A stretch of 64,000 bases of DNA, from NCBI RefSeq assembly GCF_001295845.1, contig NZ_LJIC01000022.1:1-64000 (forward strand), in the 5' to 3' direction. A program made the translations under genes and the position numbers. The DNA comes from Rhodopseudomonas sp. AAP120. Lineage in GTDB: Bacteria; Pseudomonadota; Alphaproteobacteria; Rhizobiales; Xanthobacteraceae. This document shows, piece by piece, positions 22,554 to 36,618 of this stretch (positions are counted from its first letter, which is position 1; each line of letters starts with the position of its first letter). The notes beneath the pieces are model-generated. The model worked only from the letters and a program-made list of their open reading frames with translations, did no database searches and was not told where the DNA came from.

Positions 22554-22728
22554 CCTTGCTTGAGGCACATTCGCGTCGTCTCATCTTCGTTGATGAGGCG
22601 GACGTACGGTTCCTATGCGGAGCGCGCAGGGCGGGAACCGCGGCCGCCTGCGGTGATTGATCCTGGATCGCCGCGTCGCGCAGCTTCGTGCGCGTCACAA
22701 CGCCGCGTGTTTCACTCCGAGGTTCCCG

Positions 22729-23553
22729 ATGTGTCGCTGGATTGCCTATCGCGGAGAGGCCACTCTCTTCGAGAACTATGTCACCGAGCCGGTGCATTCG
22801 CTGATCACCCAGAGCCTGCGTGCGCGCGAATCAGCGGGCCCGACCAATGGCGACGGGTTCGGGCTGGGCTGGTACGGCGTGCATCCGGAGCCGGGGCTGT
22901 ATCGCGAGACGCGGCCGGCGTGGTCGGATGAAAATCTGCGCTATCTGTGCCGGCATCTGCAATCGCACATGTTCTTCGCGCATGTCCGCGCCGCCACCGG
23001 CACGCCGGTGACGCGGCAGAATTGTCACCCGTTCGCCTGCGGCCGCTGGATGTTCATGCATAACGGTTTCGTCGGCAGCTGGAGCCGGCTGCGCCGCCGC
23101 ATCGAGGCGATGATCCCGGACCCGCTGTATCCGTCGCGCAGCGGCAATACGGACTCCGAGGCGATCTTCCTGGCCATCATGGGCGCAGGCATCGATGAAG
23201 ATCCGATCGAGGCGACGCGCACGGTGATGACGCGGCTCGGCGCGCTGCTCAACGAAAACGGCCTGCGCGAGCGGATGCGGTTCACCGCCGCGCTCGCCAA
23301 TGGTCACGATCTCTACGCCTTCCGCTTCGCCGAGAACGATACGGCGAACTCCTTGTACTATCGGCAGGCCGGCGATCGCCTGATCGTCGCGTCGGAACCG
23401 TACGATGGAGAACCGGGCTGGATCGAGGTTCCGGCCAATCACGTGTTGTTGTCGCGCTCTGCGCACCAAATCGAGTTGTTGCCGTTCATGCCGGATGAAC
23501 CCCGGCTGAAATCGGAACATCCAGGTGCCCAAAGGGTTGTCGCGCGCGCCTGA
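22729..23553 (+). CDS. Class II glutamine amidotransferase
   Basis: A 274-residue N-terminal-nucleophile amidohydrolase that would release ammonia from glutamine or act on a gamma-glutamyl compound. Cys2 (MCRW) is the expected nucleophile after Met removal. Other motifs are TNGDGFGLGWYG, FFAHVRAATGTP, and FMHNGFVGSW with the conserved Asn-Gly. It resembles the YafJ/EgtC-type stand-alone domains. I start at 22729 because the catalytic Cys must be residue 2; an upstream in-frame start adds non-conserved sequence. It is first in a run with an AsnO-like gene (32 bases away) and a YbdK-like ligase. Confidence 0.9.
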   Translation: MCRWIAYRGEATLFENYVTEPVHSLITQSLRARESAGPTNGDGFGLGWYGVHPEPGLYRETRPAWSDENLRYLCRHLQSHMFFAHVRAATGTPVTRQNCHPFACGRWMFMHNGFVGSWSRLRRRIEAMIPDPLYPSRSGNTDSEAIFLAIMGAGIDEDPIEATRTVMTRLGALLNENGLRERMRFTAALANGHDLYAFRFAENDTANSLYYRQAGDRLIVASEPYDGEPGWIEVPANHVLLSRSAHQIELLPFMPDEPRLKSEHPGAQRVVARA

Positions 23554-23585
23554 AAAAGCAGCAAAGCGAGCGAGGCCCAGGGACA

Positions 23586-25367
23586 ATGTGTGGAATTTGC
23601 GGAGAGATCCGCACCAAGAATGATGTTCGGCTTCCGGCATTCTGGACCATGACGCAGTCGATGCAGTCGCGCGGTCCGGATGCGGAAGGTGTGTTTTCGC
23701 AAGGCCTGGAGCAGGGCGCGATGGCGTTCGGTCATCGCCGGCTCGCGATTCTCGATCAGTCGTCGACGTCGCAGCAGCCGATGATCGACAGCGAGCTCGG
23801 CCTCGGCATCGTCTTCAACGGCTGCATCTACAATTTCCGCGAGCTGAAAGCCGAGCTGCAGAGCAAGGGCTATCGCTTCTTCTCCGAAGGCGACACCGAA
23901 GTCATCATCAAGGCGTATCACGCCTGGGGCACCGACTGCGTGCGCCGCTTCAAGGGCATGTTCGCGTTCGCGCTGTGGGAGCGCGACAGCGGACGTGTCG
24001 TGCTGGTCCGCGACCGTCTCGGCATCAAGCCGTTGTACTACACCGAAGGCGATGGCTTTTTCCGTTTCGCCTCGACGTTGCCGGCGCTGCTGGCCGCGGG
24101 CGGGGTCGAGCGCAGCATCGACCGGGTCGCGCTGCATCACTTCTTCAGCTTCCATGCCGCCGTGCCGGCGCCGCGCACCATTCTGAACGGCGTCAGGAAG
24201 CTCGAGCCCGCCACCATCCTGACGATCGCGCCGGACGGCAGCAAGACCACCGAGCGCTATTGGCAGTTCGCGGTCGGCGAGCGCGGCGGCGACCGCCGGC
24301 TCAGCGAGCAGGAGTGGAGCGAGGCCGTCAACGACGCGATGCTGGCGGCGGTCGATCGCCGCCGCGTCGCGGATGTGCCGGTCGGCGTGCTGCTGTCGGG
24401 CGGTCTGGATTCGTCGCTGATCGTCGCGCTGCTCGCGAAGCTCGGCCACGGCAATGTCCGCACCTTCTCGATCGGCTTCGACAGCGTCGGCGGCCAAAGC
24501 GGCGACGAGTTCTATTACTCGGATATCATCGCCAAGCATTTCGGCACCGAGCACGAGCAGATCCGGATCGACGGCGGCGAGGCCCTGGGCGTGCTGCCGG
24601 ATGCGATTCGGGCGATGTCCGAGCCGATGGTGAGCCACGATTCCGTCGCGTTCTATCTGCTGTCGCGCGAAGTCGCCAAGCGCGTGCGCGTGGTGCAGAG
24701 CGGGCAGGGTGCCGACGAGATCTTCGGCGGCTACAGCTGGTATCCGTCCTTCCTCACCACCAACGACGCCACCGAGCAATATCGCGACGCCTATTTCGAC
24801 TGGCAGCACGATGATCTGAGCAAGCTGCTGGCCGACGACATGCTGGGCGACGACGCCAGCACCGACTTCATCGAGACGTTCTTCGCGCAGACGGCCGCGA
24901 CCTCCGCGGTCGACAAGGCGCTGCAGATCGATGCCGAGACCATGCTGGTCGACGACCCGGTCAAGCGGGTCGACAACATGACGATGGCGCACGGCCTCGA
25001 AGCGCGCGTGCCGTTTCTCGACCACGAGGTGGTCGAGCTCGCCGCGCGGATGCCGTCACGGCTGAAGGTCGCGGACGGCGGCAAATACATCCTCAAGCAG
25101 GCGGCGCGATCGCTGCTGCCGGCCGAGGTGATCGACCGGCCGAAGGGCTATTTCCCGGTGCCGTCGCTGCGGCACCTCGAAGGCGATTTTCTCGCTTATG
25201 TGCGCGACGTGCTCGGCTCGCGCGCAGCGCGCGAGCGCGGGCTGTACCGGCCCGAATTCGTCGATCACATGCTTGCAAACCCCGAAGCGGAGATGAGCCC
25301 AAAGGGCCACTCGCGGCTATGGCAGGCGGCGCTCCTCGAAGCATGGCTGCAAGAACATGCAGTTTGA
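23586..25367 (+). CDS. Asparagine synthase-family amidotransferase (N-acetylglutaminylglutamine amidotransferase-like)
   Basis: A two-domain enzyme of 593 residues. The N-terminal glutaminase domain has Cys2 (MCGICG), SRGPDAEG, FGHRRLAI and FNGCIYNF. The C-terminal ATP-pyrophosphatase domain has the P-loop LLSGGLDSSL near 271 and SGQGADEIFGGY. The pattern fits asparagine synthases and especially the AsnO type, which amidates dipeptides to osmolytes such as N-acetylglutaminylglutamine amide. The usual ligase partner of AsnO (an ATP-grasp/acetyltransferase fusion) is absent here; a YbdK-like ligase takes its place. The stop overlaps the ligase start by 11 bases. Confidence 0.9.
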   Translation: MCGICGEIRTKNDVRLPAFWTMTQSMQSRGPDAEGVFSQGLEQGAMAFGHRRLAILDQSSTSQQPMIDSELGLGIVFNGCIYNFRELKAELQSKGYRFFSEGDTEVIIKAYHAWGTDCVRRFKGMFAFALWERDSGRVVLVRDRLGIKPLYYTEGDGFFRFASTLPALLAAGGVERSIDRVALHHFFSFHAAVPAPRTILNGVRKLEPATILTIAPDGSKTTERYWQFAVGERGGDRRLSEQEWSEAVNDAMLAAVDRRRVADVPVGVLLSGGLDSSLIVALLAKLGHGNVRTFSIGFDSVGGQSGDEFYYSDIIAKHFGTEHEQIRIDGGEALGVLPDAIRAMSEPMVSHDSVAFYLLSREVAKRVRVVQSGQGADEIFGGYSWYPSFLTTNDATEQYRDAYFDWQHDDLSKLLADDMLGDDASTDFIETFFAQTAATSAVDKALQIDAETMLVDDPVKRVDNMTMAHGLEARVPFLDHEVVELAARMPSRLKVADGGKYILKQAARSLLPAEVIDRPKGYFPVPSLRHLEGDFLAYVRDVLGSRAARERGLYRPEFVDHMLANPEAEMSPKGHSRLWQAALLEAWLQEHAV

Positions 25368-26589
25368 TCCGAAGATCATCGAGCGGCTCCGCCTCAATCT
25401 GTCCGGGGATCAGAGCCACATCGTCATCCGCTCCGCCGCAGGCGGCGACGCGGAGGCGGCCGGCTATTCGTTCGGCATCGAGGAGGAGTACTTCCTGGCC
25501 GATGCCGCAACCGGCGAAGCCGCGATCCTGACGCCGAACGAATTGTTCGAGGCGGCGAATTGGTCGACCGGCGGCCAGGTGATGCGCGAGATGCTGCAGG
25601 CGCAGATCGAGGTCGCGACCAACGTCCATGTCGATCCCAAGGACGCGCGGGAGGAACTGCGCTTCCTGCGCCGCGAGGTGTCGGCGGTCGCGGCGCAATA
25701 CGGCCTCGTCATCATGGCATGCAGCACGCATCCGACCGCGTCATGGCGTGCGTCGCAGCCGACGCCGAAGCCGCGCTATTTCGAGATGATCGAGAACCTT
25801 CAGGTGATCGGCTATCGCAACATGCTGTGCGGCATGCACGTCCATGTCCAGCTGCCGCAGCCGGACAAGCGCTTCCCGGTGATGTGCGCGCTGATCCCGC
25901 ATCTGCCGCTGTTTCTGGCGCTGTCGACGTCGTCGCCGTTCTGGAGCTCGGAGAACACCGGGCTGCGCGGCTATCGGCTCGCCGCCTATAGCGAGCTGCC
26001 GCGCACCGGCCTGCCGGAGCTGTTCGAAGATCAGCGCGGCTATGAGGACTATATCGGCGCGCTGGTGAAGTCGGGCGTGATCCCCGACGAGAGCCATGTG
26101 TGGTGGGCAATGCGTCCGTCGTTCCGGCATCCGACGCTGGAGCTGCGCGCGCCCGACGTGTGCACCCGGCTGGACGACGCCGTGGCGATCGCCTGTCTGT
26201 ATCGCGCTCTGGTCCGGCACCTCGGCGAGATGCCGGAGACGCCGAGGGTCGACGCGGTCGAGCGCGCGATCGCGGTGGAAAACAAATGGCGCGCCCAGCG
26301 CTACGGCACCGGCTGCAGCTTCGCCTCGCGCGATGGCGCGGTGCCGATCGCGCAGGCGCTCGACCGCGTGATCGAGCTGGTCCGCGACGATGCGGAGGCG
26401 CTCGGCTGCGCCGCCGAAGTCGAGGCCTGTCGCGACATCCTGCGCCGCGGCAGCTCCGCCGACGCGCAGCTTCGCGTGTACGAAGCCAGCGGCGGCGACC
26501 TCACGGCGGTGACGCGCTGGATCGCCGAGGAAACCATCGCCGAAGCCGGCCAGCCGCCCGCAGCAGCGACGCGCGATGCGGTGAATTAG
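25357..26589 (+). CDS. YbdK/GCS2-family carboxylate-amine ligase
   Basis: A 410-residue ATP-dependent ligase of the glutamate-cysteine ligase 2 family. FGIEEEYFL (39-47) is the ATP/metal-binding signature; MCGMHVHVQLP and HPTLELRAPDVC are the other family motifs. Characterised relatives join glutamate to cysteine or other amines through a gamma-glutamyl bond. The start overlaps the AsnO-like gene, so translation is coupled. In this operon it could build the peptide that the amidotransferase then amidates, with the class II amidotransferase processing or supplying nitrogen. The product is not known. Confidence 0.9.
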   Translation: MQFDPKIIERLRLNLSGDQSHIVIRSAAGGDAEAAGYSFGIEEEYFLADAATGEAAILTPNELFEAANWSTGGQVMREMLQAQIEVATNVHVDPKDAREELRFLRREVSAVAAQYGLVIMACSTHPTASWRASQPTPKPRYFEMIENLQVIGYRNMLCGMHVHVQLPQPDKRFPVMCALIPHLPLFLALSTSSPFWSSENTGLRGYRLAAYSELPRTGLPELFEDQRGYEDYIGALVKSGVIPDESHVWWAMRPSFRHPTLELRAPDVCTRLDDAVAIACLYRALVRHLGEMPETPRVDAVERAIAVENKWRAQRYGTGCSFASRDGAVPIAQALDRVIELVRDDAEALGCAAEVEACRDILRRGSSADAQLRVYEASGGDLTAVTRWIAEETIAEAGQPPAAATRDAVN

Positions 26590-26614: not shown

Positions 26615-26708
26615 CTCTCCCCGTCATTGCGAGCGAAGCGAAGCAATCCAGCCTAGTGCACTGATCTGGATTGCTTCGTCGCTGCGCTCCTCGCAATGAC
26701 GGGGAGAG
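26615..26708. repeat. Dispersed palindromic repeat (CGTCATTGCGAGC family), copy 1
   Basis: CCCCGTCATTGCGAGC and AAGCAATCCAG are matched in reverse by CTGGATTGCTTCG and CTCGCAATGACGGGG, forming one long hairpin after the ligase gene. At least six copies lie between genes in this window. Confidence 0.88.
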
Positions 26709-26806
26709 GCTGGTTTGTGAGCAGACGAGGCCTGGGACGCGGTAGGCGGTGGTTAGCGCGGCGGAAGATCCGGAATCGACGGCTGGATGGTCCTCGACTG
26801 TTGCTT

Positions 26807-26933
26807 CCGTCATTGCGAGCCAACGGGTCCGGCCCGGCCGGCCCGATGACAGGCTCCGCGAAGCAATCCAGGAGCGCCGAGCACGGGGCTGGATTGCTTC
26901 GTCGGCTACGCCTCCTCGCAATGACGGGGAGAG
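26807..26933. repeat. Dispersed palindromic repeat, copy 2 (with insertion)
   Basis: Same outer arms as copy 1 (CCGTCATTGCGAGC and CTCGCAATGACGGGG). The left arm carries an extra GC-rich stretch, with GGCCCGGCCGGCCC at its core, so the hairpin is branched. It lies 98 bases from copy 1. Confidence 0.85.
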
Positions 26934-29978: not shown

Positions 29979-31201
29979 ACCGGCTGCTGCCGTTCGAGTG
30001 GATCGCCGCAGTGCGCTTCCTGCTCGACGGCGCGCTGCAGACGCTGGTGATCGTCGGCGGCATCGCCATCGGGGTCGGCGTCATCGTCTTCATGTCGGCG
30101 ATGCTGGCCGGGCTGCAGGCCAATTTCATCAAGCGCGTGCTGACCTCGCAGCCGCAGATTCAGCTGATCCCGCCCGACCAGGTGGCGCGGCCGCTGCGCG
30201 ATGCGCCGGGCACGTTCGAATCGGCCACCGTGCAGCGCCCCACCCAGCGGGTGATCTCGATCAACCAATGGCCGAAGATCCGCGCCGAGATGCAGGCGCG
30301 GCCCGAGGTCACCAACGCCGCCGCCACCGCGGCCGGCTCGGCGCTGGCGCTGCGCGGCGACACCAACCGCGCCATCACGCTGACCGGCATCGAGCCTGAG
30401 ATCTATTTCAACATCGTCAAGGTGCCGGACTACATCGTCGCCGGCACGCCGCAGATCACCACCGAGGGCATTCTGGTCGGCATCGAACTGGCGCGCGATC
30501 TCGGCGCCTCGCTCGGCGACAAGATCATCGTCTCGACGCCGCTCGCCGGCACCCGCGTGCTCACCATCAACGGCATCTTCGATTTCGGCAACAAGGCCGC
30601 CAACCAGCGCACCACTTTTGTCACGCTGCGCAACGCCCAGAGCATGCTCGGCCTGATCGGCGGCGTCACCTCGATCGATCTCACCGTCACCGATATCTAC
30701 GCGGCCGAGGACATCGCCGCGGAGATCCAGGCGATGCTGCCCGTCAAGGCCGACAGCTGGATCAAGACCAACGCGCAGTTCTTCACCGCGGTGCAGGCGC
30801 AGAAGAATTCCAACACGCTGATCCGGCTGTTTGTCGGCCTGTCCGTGGCGTTCGGCATCGCCGCGGTGCTGATCGTTTCGGTGATCCAGCGCTCCAAGGA
30901 CATCGGCATCCTGCGGGCGATGGGGACGCGGCGCGAGCAGATCCTGCGGGTGTTTCTGATCCAGGGCGGGCTGCTCGCCTTCGTCGGCTCGCTGATCGGC
31001 TCCGGGCTCGGCGCGCTGGCGCTGATCGTGTGGCACCGCACCGCCCGGCAGGTCGACGGCAGCGAATTGTTTCCGCTGATCATCGAGAGCGATCTGTTCG
31101 TCTGGGCCTCGGTGCTCGCCACGGCCACCGGCGTTGCGGCGGCGATCGCGCCGGCGCTGCGCGCGGCGCGGCTCGATCCGGTGGTGGCGATCCGTGGCTG
31201 A
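29975..31201 (+). CDS. ABC transporter permease, MacB/LolC (FtsX) family
   Basis: Inner-membrane permease of 408 residues. It has one transmembrane helix near the N-terminus (about 20-45), a large periplasmic domain (about 50-270) and three helices in the C-terminal FtsX domain, where [18 protein letters not shown] is the coupling-helix signature. The ATPase is a separate gene, as in LolCDE. The four-base overlaps at both ends show a tightly coupled operon. Confidence 0.92.
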
Positions 31202-31874
31202 AGTTCTGCGCCTCGACCAGATCCGCAAGTCCTACAATGTCGGCACGCCGGTCGAGACCGAGGTGCTGCACGGCATCGACCTCGCGATGAACGCCGGCGA
31301 TTTCCTGGCGCTGATGGGGCCGTCCGGCTCCGGCAAATCGACGCTGCTCAACATCATCGGCCTGCTCGACCGGCCGACCGGCGGGCGGCTGCTGATCAGC
31401 GGCCAGGACACCGGCAGGCTCGGCGATGCGGCGCTGACGCATCTACGCGGCCACGCCATCGGCTTCGTATTTCAGTATCACTATCTGATCGCGGCGTTTA
31501 CGGCCCGGGAGAACGTAATGATGCCGATGCTGGTCGATCGCGGGCGCCCCGATGCTGCGATCCAGCGCCGCGCCGACGAACTGCTCGACCGCGTCGGCCT
31601 CGCCAGATGGCGTAACAACAGCGCCACCAATATGTCCGGCGGTCAGCAGCAGCGCGTCGCCGTCGCCCGCGCGCTGGCGATGAACCCGGACCTGGTACTC
31701 GCGGACGAGCCGACCGGCAATCTCGACACCAAATCCGCAGAGGACGTGTTCGACCTGATGCGCGAGATCAACCGCGAGCGCGGCACCACGTTTCTGCTGG
31801 TGACGCACAACGACGATCTTGCGGCAAAGTGCGATCGTATCGTGCGGGTCGTGGATGGAAGGATTGCGGGGTAG
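31194..31874 (+). CDS. ABC transporter ATP-binding protein, LolD/MacB type
   Basis: ATPase of 226 residues that drives the upstream permease. Walker [10 protein letters not shown] near 42, signature SGGQQQR near 147, Walker [13 protein letters not shown] near 168, and the H-loop VTHND are intact. The start is a GTG at 31194 that overlaps the end of the permease gene by eight bases. Third gene of the exporter operon. Confidence 0.94.
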
Positions 31875-31928
31875 GGCGAAGGAGGCGCTGCCGCCGGGGA
31901 GGCACCGCGCCGACCTCGCGCTTCATCG

Positions 31929-32040
31929 TCATCGCCCGGCTCGGCCCGGCGATCCAGTATCGCAGAGCGCCTGTTTGGTCCGCAGGGCGTTCCCGGAGAC
32001 GCTCTGGAATACTGGATCCCCCGCATGCGCGGGGGATGAC
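31929..32040. repeat. Palindromic intergenic repeat (second family)
   Basis: Outer arms GTCATCGCCCGG and a GGGGGATGAC end, with inner arms ATCCAGTAT (31952-31960) and ATACTGGAT (32009-32017). A separate small hairpin CCCCCGCATGCGCGGGGG sits at the right end. It is unlike the CGTCATTGCGAGC family. It lies downstream of the exporter operon and the convergent binding-protein gene. Confidence 0.75.
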
Positions 32041-32059
32041 AGGTGATGGTGGGGCAGCC

Positions 32060-32089
32060 CCAATCTCTTATAAGCCAATCTCTTATAGA
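32060..32089. repeat. Tandem 15-base direct repeat
   Basis: CCAATCTCTTATAAG is followed directly by CCAATCTCTTATAGA. Two copies of a 13-base identical core lie just before the terminator of the minus-strand binding-protein gene. Confidence 0.7.
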
Positions 32090-32092
32090 ATG

Positions 32093-32116
32093 ATGCGCGG
32101 GACTAGGCCCGCGCAT
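32093..32116 (-). terminator. Hairpin downstream of the solute-binding gene
   Basis: ATGCGCGGG pairs with CCCGCGCAT across six bases, 25 bases past the stop of the minus-strand gene. The T-run after it is weak (CATTCTAT), so termination strength is uncertain. Confidence 0.55.
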
Positions 32117-32140
32117 TCGTCGTTACTTATGGCGTTGGTG

Positions 32141-33358
32141 TTAGTTCGTCAGCTTCGCTTCGATGACGTCGCCGAACATCTCCCAGCGGTCGCCTTTGAA
32201 GCGCATCAGTTGCATCTGCTCGATCGGGAAATGATCGGTCGGGGAGGTGTTCATGGTGATCCCCGGCAGCAATGCGGACGGCGCGTAGCCTTTCAGGCTG
32301 GTCGCGACCTTCATGATGTTCTCGCGCGTCAGGTTGTCGCCGGCCTGTGTCAGGATGTGCTCCAGCGTCTGCGCGGCACCGTAGCCGTACAGTAGCAGGC
32401 CGTTCGAGCGATCGGAGCCCGGCATGTATTTGTCCAGGAAGGCGTTCCATTCCTTCAGGCCCGGATCGTTCGTCCAGGTCGGGTCGGTCGGATCCTTGAC
32501 GTAGCTGGCGGTGATCGCGTCCTGGGCGAATTCCATACCGGCCGGCTTGATCACCGCGCCGACCGAGGCCGACACGTTGTTCAGCACGTGAATCGGTTTC
32601 CAGCCGAGCTCGCCCATCTTGCGGATCGCTAGCGCCGCGAACTTCGGAGTCGACAGGTTGAGGAACATGTCGGCGCCGGAGGCCTTCAGCTTGGCCATCT
32701 GCGAGTCGATGGTCGGGTCGGTGATGTCGTAGCTCGCTTCCGAAATGATCATCGACGTCTTGTCGCCGAGACCGTCCTTGACGCCCTTGTAGATGTCCTT
32801 GCCGTAATCGTCGTTGGCCACCAGGACGGCGATCTTGGCGTTCGGGTGGGTCGCCAGGATCCACTTCGCATAGATCCGGCCTTCGGCCTGGTACGGCGGA
32901 TTGAACGGCATCGTCCACGGATAGGTCTTGGGATCGTCGCCGAACCGCGTGCCGCCGCTCGACACCATCAGTTGCGGCACCTTCTTCTGGTTCAGGTACT
33001 TCATCACGGCGGTGTTCGACGGCGTGCCGAGCGTCTGGTACAGGAACAGCACCTCGTCGCCTTCGACCAGCTTGCGGGCCTGTTCCACCGCCTTTGCCGG
33101 TGAATACGCATCGTCATACGACAGGAAGTTGATCTTGCGGCCGTTGATGCCGCCCTTGTCGTTGAGCATCTTGGCGTAGGCGATCTCGACCTGGCCGACG
33201 ATGCCGTAGGCCGATGCCGGGCCGCTGTAGGGCACGAAATTCCCGATCTTGATCTCGGTGTCGCTGGCGCCCGGACCGTAGGATTTCTGCGCCAGCGCAA
33301 CGCCCGGCGCGAGCAGCGACGTCGCCGCCAGCACGGCGGCAAGTCCGAAAAGTCTCAT
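32141..33358 (-). CDS. ABC transporter solute-binding protein (LivK-like)
   Basis: Periplasmic Peripla_BP_6 protein of 405 residues. The signal peptide ends ALAQ (about residue 24). The mature protein begins KSYGPGASDTEIKIGNFVPYSGP, a form common in Bradyrhizobium and Rhodopseudomonas receptors for amino acids or aromatic acids. No transport genes are adjacent, so it must share a permease encoded elsewhere. It is one of three such orphans in the window. Confidence 0.9.
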   Translation of the reverse strand: MRLFGLAAVLAATSLLAPGVALAQKSYGPGASDTEIKIGNFVPYSGPASAYGIVGQVEIAYAKMLNDKGGINGRKINFLSYDDAYSPAKAVEQARKLVEGDEVLFLYQTLGTPSNTAVMKYLNQKKVPQLMVSSGGTRFGDDPKTYPWTMPFNPPYQAEGRIYAKWILATHPNAKIAVLVANDDYGKDIYKGVKDGLGDKTSMIISEASYDITDPTIDSQMAKLKASGADMFLNLSTPKFAALAIRKMGELGWKPIHVLNNVSASVGAVIKPAGMEFAQDAITASYVKDPTDPTWTNDPGLKEWNAFLDKYMPGSDRSNGLLLYGYGAAQTLEHILTQAGDNLTRENIMKVATSLKGYAPSALLPGITMNTSPTDHFPIEQMQLMRFKGDRWEMFGDVIEAKLTN

Positions 33359-36530: not shown

Positions 36531-36618
36531 CCGTCATTGCAAGGAACGAAGCGACGAAGCAATCCAGCGTCGAGCACTTGGCTGGATTGCTTCACTTCGC
36601 TCGCAATGACGGGGAGAG
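36531..36618. repeat. Dispersed palindromic repeat, copy 3
   Basis: CCGTCATTGCAAGG...AAGCAATCCAG faces CTGGATTGCTTC...CTCGCAATGACGGGG. It lies between the aldo-keto reductase start and the next gene's stop. Confidence 0.85.

Follow-up and report, generated by a model that had tools for sequence, protein, structure and literature searches.

The closest described relative of the system studied here is the trio for N-acetylglutaminylglutamine amide (NAGGN), formed by the amidotransferase AsnO (TIGR03104), the ligase Ngg (TIGR03103) and an M42 peptidase (TIGR03106), as in asnO-ngg of Sinorhizobium meliloti and PA3459-PA3461 of Pseudomonas aeruginosa. The passages of PMC8070244 and PMC5563000 that concern this operon give it as amidotransferase, Ngg and peptidase, and propose that the peptidase may balance the NAGGN pool. 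Here we analyze a window of 64,000 nucleotides (the whole stretch of DNA under study, positions 1 to 64,000 of contig NZ_LJIC01000022.1 of Rhodopseudomonas sp. AAP120), in which an AsnO-like gene lies in an operon with a class II amidohydrolase and a YbdK-type ligase. We refer to the three genes as A, B, and C.

A, 22729-23553, plus strand: EgtC-like class II (Ntn) amidohydrolase; 274 amino acids, starts MCRW, Cys2 nucleophile.
B, 23586-25367, plus strand: AsnO-like glutamine-dependent amidotransferase of a subfamily not linked to Ngg; 593 amino acids, starts MCGI.
C, 25357-26589, plus strand: YbdK/PRK13515-type GCS2 carboxylate-amine ligase; 410 amino acids, with about 35 extra N-terminal residues.

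From the sequence, we see about an even chance that this is a stress-controlled enzyme trio analogous to the NAGGN trio, but built with another ligase and another hydrolase. The pathway, seen in bacteria of soils and of plants, may make or trim a glutamate-linked compound. That the pathway is a distinct one, separate from NAGGN synthesis, is well supported.

The initial annotation of this stretch had reported the three open reading frames, and the coordinates match: A and B are 32 bases apart, B and C overlap by 11 bases, and all three genes are on the plus strand. It had also judged the catalytic residues to be intact, and the conserved motifs of the three proteins are indeed all kept in our alignments; from their families, we take the residues in these motifs to be the catalytic ones. 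When compared with three relatives in the genus (L067, L069, L071), the ratio of nonsynonymous to synonymous substitution rates of A, B, and C is 0.07-0.33, which indicates that all three genes are under purifying selection.

An AsnO-like amidotransferase away from Ngg

AsnO and Ngg usually go together. Among 199 sampled genomes of the order, an AsnO above the cut-off is present in 51, and 49 of those 51 also have an Ngg above the cut-off. In genome G120, a partial Ngg of 512.7 bits lies next to pieces of AsnO; at positions 31056-33357 of its contig C13, the two matches run together within about 2.3 kb, with AsnO model positions 1-231 and 258-488 matched in a single open frame of 988 residues, and Ngg model positions 235-546. 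The pair may have been shortened or fused there, or this may be an artefact of the assembly. In the window genome, the best match to Ngg is a 50.7-bit fragment on contig C35 (6 of 16 first-look candidates were scored), and the M42 peptidase, which stands directly 3′ of Ngg in both Ngg-type loci that we inspected (L180, L184), has no match (12 of 12 candidates scored). This absence of an Ngg above the cut-off agrees with the proposal of the initial annotation that the usual ATP-grasp ligase is replaced here.

One alternative is that NAGGN itself is made, with C or some other enzyme replacing Ngg, and B acting as the normal amidotransferase. B does score 927.4 bits against the NAGGN equivalog TIGR03104, well past its cut-off of 570.1, a B of the same subfamily in Methylorubrum scores 1024.6 bits, and the motifs Cys2, RGPD, GHRRL, FNGCIYN, GDTEV, and SGGLDSS are all kept. 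However, the unit is without an acetyltransferase, C belongs to GCS2 and not to the GNAT/ATP-grasp type, and the 248 genomes of the family include 15 with an Ngg-type AsnO, none of which has A (10 of the 15 were seen at the locus, while G343, G378, G395, G419, and G438 were assigned by identity and genus).

The evolutionary placement of B points the same way. In a tree of 83 proteins, a single fully supported branch (100 in the Shimodaira-Hasegawa-like approximate likelihood-ratio test) parts 39 Ngg-linked sequences from 44 others, and B of the window is among the latter. Of the 39, those of L003-L032 were labelled from the coordinates of their AsnO and Ngg matches, and their flanks are short. 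Three positions differ between the two sides without exception (39/39 vs. 44/44), going from the Ngg-linked residue to the other as Y351H, F403Y, and L573K; position 351 adjoins the conserved SEPM stretch. In addition, an alignment of 11 sequences has at position 577 a Glu in the 4 Ngg-type sequences, and an Arg or Lys in the 7 others. His351, Tyr403, and Lys573 suggest an acceptor other than that of the Ngg-linked AsnO, and the extra positive charge would fit one more acidic than N-acetylglutaminylglutamine. Because the three fixed differences suggest another acceptor, the database label "NAGGN amidotransferase" is probably wrong for B here. Synthesis of NAGGN itself fails as an explanation because its partners, Ngg and the M42 peptidase, are missing, and we regard it as improbable.

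Linkage of the three genes across genomes

If A, B, and C act together, they should be found together elsewhere. We used as a starting point the 80 named loci found with A, which are the best 80 of 570 relatives. The arrangement is AC in 29 of them, A alone in 25 (some clipped by contig ends), BA in 14, ABC in 7 (one with a truncated B), BCA in 3, CA in 1, and A with a convergent B in 1. Ngg is adjacent to A in none of the 80. There are also two cases of BC without an adjacent A, in L076 and on the 3.7-kb contig of L171. Bradyrhizobium sp. BTAi1 is one strain that carries ABC. The orders ABC, AC, BA, BC, BCA, and CA recur in Rhodopseudomonas, Bradyrhizobium, Nitrobacter, Xanthobacteraceae, and Methylobacteriaceae. 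The initial annotation would have been undermined had the three families rarely been neighbors; instead, their adjacency recurs in several genera and orders.

Presence and absence tell a similar story. At the thresholds used (E-values of 1e-30 for C and 1e-150 for B), 7 of the 16 Rhodopseudomonas genomes carry the whole set, while the other 9 lack every one of its genes. Within the 248 genomes of the family, 29 have an AsnO without Ngg at the locus, and 27 of the 29 also have A; the two exceptions are genomes that are 90% and 86% complete. The Fisher values for the co-occurrence of A and AsnO ignore kinship, and the C match at 1e-30 in 61 of 67 genomes with A both ignores kinship and counts paralogues, so we use neither as support.

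That the three genes are just loose neighbors without a shared pathway is, in our view, highly improbable. It is true that A and C-like genes are also found alone, and that in 9 of the 83 sequences of the tree B has neither A nor C adjacent. But the same families are joined in several gene orders, the three genes are present or absent jointly across the 16 genomes of the genus, B and C overlap, and the operons have a promoter motif in common. The repeated adjacency and the joint presence and absence back the earlier statement that the genes act together.

The conservation is not the same for the three genes. Among loci L086-L121 (Rhodopseudomonas, Bradyrhizobium, and Nitrobacter), 29 of 36 have A and C without B, and 7 of the 9 sampled genomes of the Bradyrhizobium group that have A are without B at the 1e-150 threshold. 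In Nitrobacter vulgaris (L082, 10670-11527; L092), the B found between A and C lacks residues 1-310, so that the glutaminase domain and the SGGLDSS loop are gone, and it appears to be an AsnO in decay, the rest of the operon being intact. Given these absences and this truncation, A and C, as a make-and-break pair, would seem to form the core of the pathway, and the step of B seems dispensable. Thus, while an amidated product, as the initial annotation had proposed, may hold where B is present, amidation is not fixed; with 29 of 36 loci keeping A and C without B, it is an optional step. Genome G359 of the Bradyrhizobium group has two separate copies of C, one with A and the other with B (L072, L076).

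The surroundings of the block vary. It has at least two chromosomal settings in the genus: in the window genome and in G348 and G262, it is within a few kb of the same FtsX-type gene, and in G317 and G362, each assembled as a single contig, more than 1 million bases separate it from that gene. The substrate-binding protein upstream of A was considered as a member of the operon and rejected; its orthologues in G262 and G348 are on contigs other than those with ABC, which places this gene outside the block. Clustering of the neighbors of the 80 loci finds a cupin protein on the same strand, 0.4-1 kb 3′ of C, in 27 of the 29 Bradyrhizobium AC loci (for instance L099, 5914-7098). Downstream of the operon in the window, a repeated and partly palindromic element, GAGCGAAGCGAAGCAATCCAG, starts about 40 bases past the stop of C (26631-26651 and about 26639-26933). 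The window has 5 copies of it with 0-2 mismatches vs. a mean of 0.00 expected, the others being near 36582, 38782, 53610, and 53779.

The combination of the three families is not described in the titles or abstract starts of the open-licence papers that our literature searches listed. One of these, PMC7950203, has a table entry without the partners.

Ligase, hydrolase, and the routes they could serve

C is a carboxylate-amine ligase by curated cut-offs, with 493.5 bits for NF010039 (cut-off 371) and 271.2 bits for TIGR02050, the YbdK model (cut-off 176.4). It is under the cut-off for the glutamate-cysteine ligase models searched, which are four PRK13517 models, PRK13518, and TIGR02048. In 12 aligned sequences, the window included, the stretch G40-I-E-E-E-Y-F46 is invariant, as are H161, H163, W249, W250, R253, P254, S255, and P259-A265. 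In a tree drawn from 79 proteins, for which the named Bradyrhizobium AC loci were thinned to one in four, 59 were kept and 2 with stops dropped, one branch (support 96/88) separates the 32 sequences adjoining A and/or B from 27 that adjoin neither, the flanks of these unlinked ones being about 1.5 kb only.

Could C be a plain glutamate-cysteine ligase for glutathione, in an operon that trims thiol peptides? Membership in the GCS2 family and a weak profile relation to the plant glutamate-cysteine ligase would allow it. Against it, a second GCS2 gene of the genome fits the family far better (344.6 vs. 179.2 bits) and would be the likelier glutathione enzyme, only 7 of the 16 genomes of the genus have C at an E-value of 1e-30, and the solved structures nearest to C are YbdK-type. 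We consider this role very improbable.

A is related to EgtC, the enzyme that strips gamma-glutamate from an intermediate of the ergothioneine pathway. Its nearest solved structures are 3mdn (1.4e-67) and those of EgtC (4zfj/4zfk/4zfl). In profile searches, it reaches 198.3 bits for the EgtC model TIGR03442, under the cut-off of 218.65, and 59.8 bits for Pfam GATase_4. It would not be needed as a source of ammonia for B, since B keeps its own glutaminase motifs. Genes near lone A resemble ahcY and lepA, judged from the first residues only, and a plasmid search returned A genes without an adjacent B or C, with no neighbor shared among three annotated plasmid regions.

The relation to EgtC, together with the presence of EgtD in the window genome, raises the question of whether A and C have the roles of EgtC and EgtA in ergothioneine synthesis, with B a bystander. 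We find this barely credible, and reject it on the distribution of EgtD. EgtD is on another contig of the window genome (C184), and it is present in 205 of the 248 family genomes and in all 16 of the genus, while A is in 67 of 248 and 7 of 16. Conversely, A is found without an EgtD match in 8 of 20 EgtD-negative genomes among those listed (23 more are EgtD-negative), and five of the 8, G206, G211, G216, G256, and G280, are 99-100% complete. Moreover, A does not reach the EgtC cut-off, and no EgtA match was found for C.

A different use of the same chemistry deserves more weight, even if we still find it unlikely. In EgtA/EgtC, as in BtrJ/BtrG of butirosin, a cap is added and later removed. By this protecting-group logic, C would cap an amino acid with gamma-glutamate, B would amidate it, and A would uncap it to release a free amino-acid amide, which would make A a biosynthetic enzyme and not one of turnover. 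The resemblance of A to EgtC, the A and C pair kept in 29 of the 80 named loci, and a Lys573 that could hold the glutamyl carboxylate in all 44 B sequences not linked to Ngg are in its favor. Yet many Bradyrhizobium keep A and C without B, where capping and uncapping would be futile unless another enzyme acts in between, and their conserved neighbor, the cupin protein 3′ of C, is not a clear candidate for that step.

A putative stress-type promoter and a candidate pathway

Upstream of A, the window has the following site.

22634-22658, plus strand: putative sigma-EcfG promoter; GGAAC at 22634-22638, a 16-base spacer, and a degenerate -10 element GATT at 22655-22658.

The EcfG motif in the part of PMC3892343 that gives it is GGAAC-N16-CGTT. 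In 117 upstream regions, we scanned the 115 bases before the first gene, taking the expectation from the rate in the same loci. The form GGAAC-N16/17-YGTT is present in 39 of the 117 vs. 0.27 expected, and the exact CGTT in 20 vs. 0.16 expected. By group, the YGTT form is in 30 of 34 Bradyrhizobium AC regions, 3 of 6 others from Bradyrhizobium and Nitrobacter, and 3 of 44 others; it is in 0 of 10 Ngg-type regions and 0 of 134 control genes. A looser -10 element, NRTT, which was chosen after viewing the upstream regions of the genus, is present in 7 of 7 of those (0.04 expected), 34 of 34 Bradyrhizobium AC, 4 of 6 other Bradyrhizobium and Nitrobacter, 11 of 16 Methylobacteriaceae, and 6 of 20 other regions with B first, and it is absent from all 24 regions of the leftover group, mostly those of a lone A, and from all 10 of Ngg type. 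When a matrix is trained on 30 Bradyrhizobium sites together with their flanking bases, the window site has p = 0.03; at p < 0.05, this matrix finds 11 of 44 others, 0 of 10 Ngg-type regions, and 4 of 134 control genes. We looked also for a sigma-70 promoter and a T-run terminator, and neither was found.

Of the 16 Methylobacteriaceae loci, 10 have an extracytoplasmic function (ECF) sigma factor with an N-terminal extension adjoining A on the opposite strand. The one copy scanned (L157, 8891-9724) matches Pfam PhyR_sigma2 and PhyR_sigma-like, and we take it to be an EcfG with a NepR-like N-terminus. The motif points to the general stress response, which may control the ABC and AC operons. Given this promoter evidence, the "osmolyte" of the initial annotation is too narrow.

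A pathway can be proposed as follows. Transcribed from a promoter of the sigma-EcfG type, C would link glutamate, through its gamma-carboxylate, to the amine of an acid acceptor at the expense of ATP. B would then amidate the free carboxylate of that product, with ammonia from glutamine released by its own glutaminase domain, a step that would be missing where A and C alone remain. Finally, A would hydrolyze the gamma-glutamyl bond. This could serve to recycle that product once stress is over, the role put forward in the literature for the NAGGN peptidase, or to take off a gamma-glutamyl group that had been added as a temporary cap. The full form of the proposal, which we put forward tentatively and rate below even, is that Hyphomicrobiales have a system under sigma-EcfG control for a gamma-glutamyl dipeptide, which carries an amide wherever B is present, and that a gamma-glutamyl hydrolase is dedicated to it. 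This would be a second type of stress solute system based on AsnO, derived from the NAGGN trio by exchange of both its ligase and its hydrolase.

Several observations weigh against a stress-controlled trio of this kind. The gamma-glutamyl chemistry of C is a prediction from family resemblance, and the structure models of A and C are poor (mean predicted local distance difference test scores of 62.2 and 62.6). In Methylobacteriaceae, 14 of the 15 genomes searched carry just two unlinked C-like paralogues each, 42-47% identical. Outside the window genome, Ngg was scored as absent from the locus of B, several times on short contigs, and not genome-wide. A is often alone, not just in those 25 named loci: class-wide it is present in 38 of 240 genomes, and in the 29 other class loci fetched, whose flanks are short, none has B or C within 1.5 kb. 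The partnership of A and C may therefore be secondary. As for the promoter, the -10 element GATT of the window departs from the CGTT consensus, and thus is a weaker, degenerate site. The YGTT form, outside of the Bradyrhizobium AC loci, is in 1 of 7 regions of the genus (the window not being the one) and 2 of 16 of Methylobacteriaceae, and in the scan that took in the looser NRTT, the strict form is in 4 of 20 other regions with B first; the matrix at p < 0.05 finds 2 of 7, 1 of 6 other Bradyrhizobium and Nitrobacter, and 0 of 16 Methylobacteriaceae.

If the proposal is true, many genomes of Bradyrhizobium, Rhodopseudomonas, and Methylobacterium harbor a pathway for a stress metabolite that has gone unrecognized, and the name "N-acetylglutaminylglutamine amidotransferase", assigned automatically, is misleading wherever there is no Ngg. 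The YbdK-type ligases, so far poorly understood, would be placed in a concrete setting, with a substrate question that can be tested, and the three residues named above may set the choice of acceptor in AsnO.

How does this operon compare with known systems? With the NAGGN trio it shares a tight operon of an AsnO-family amidotransferase, a ligase, and a hydrolase, and a probable link to stress. The ligase, however, is GCS2 here and GNAT/ATP-grasp there, the hydrolase is class II Ntn here and M42 there, the families in both cases being unrelated, and here B is a separate and optional subfamily, behind a promoter that is sigma-EcfG-like. With EgtC and EgtA, the resemblance is that of A to EgtC, the place of C in the GCS2 superfamily, and, by analogy, a possible division of labor in which one enzyme adds a gamma-glutamyl group and another removes it; here the distribution does not follow that of EgtD, A scores under the EgtC cut-off, and the partner is AsnO-like. 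C itself is a member of the YbdK/PRK13515 carboxylate-amine ligases, from which it differs by its extra N-terminal residues and, when adjoining A or B, by standing across the 96/88 branch from the 27 paralogues sampled.

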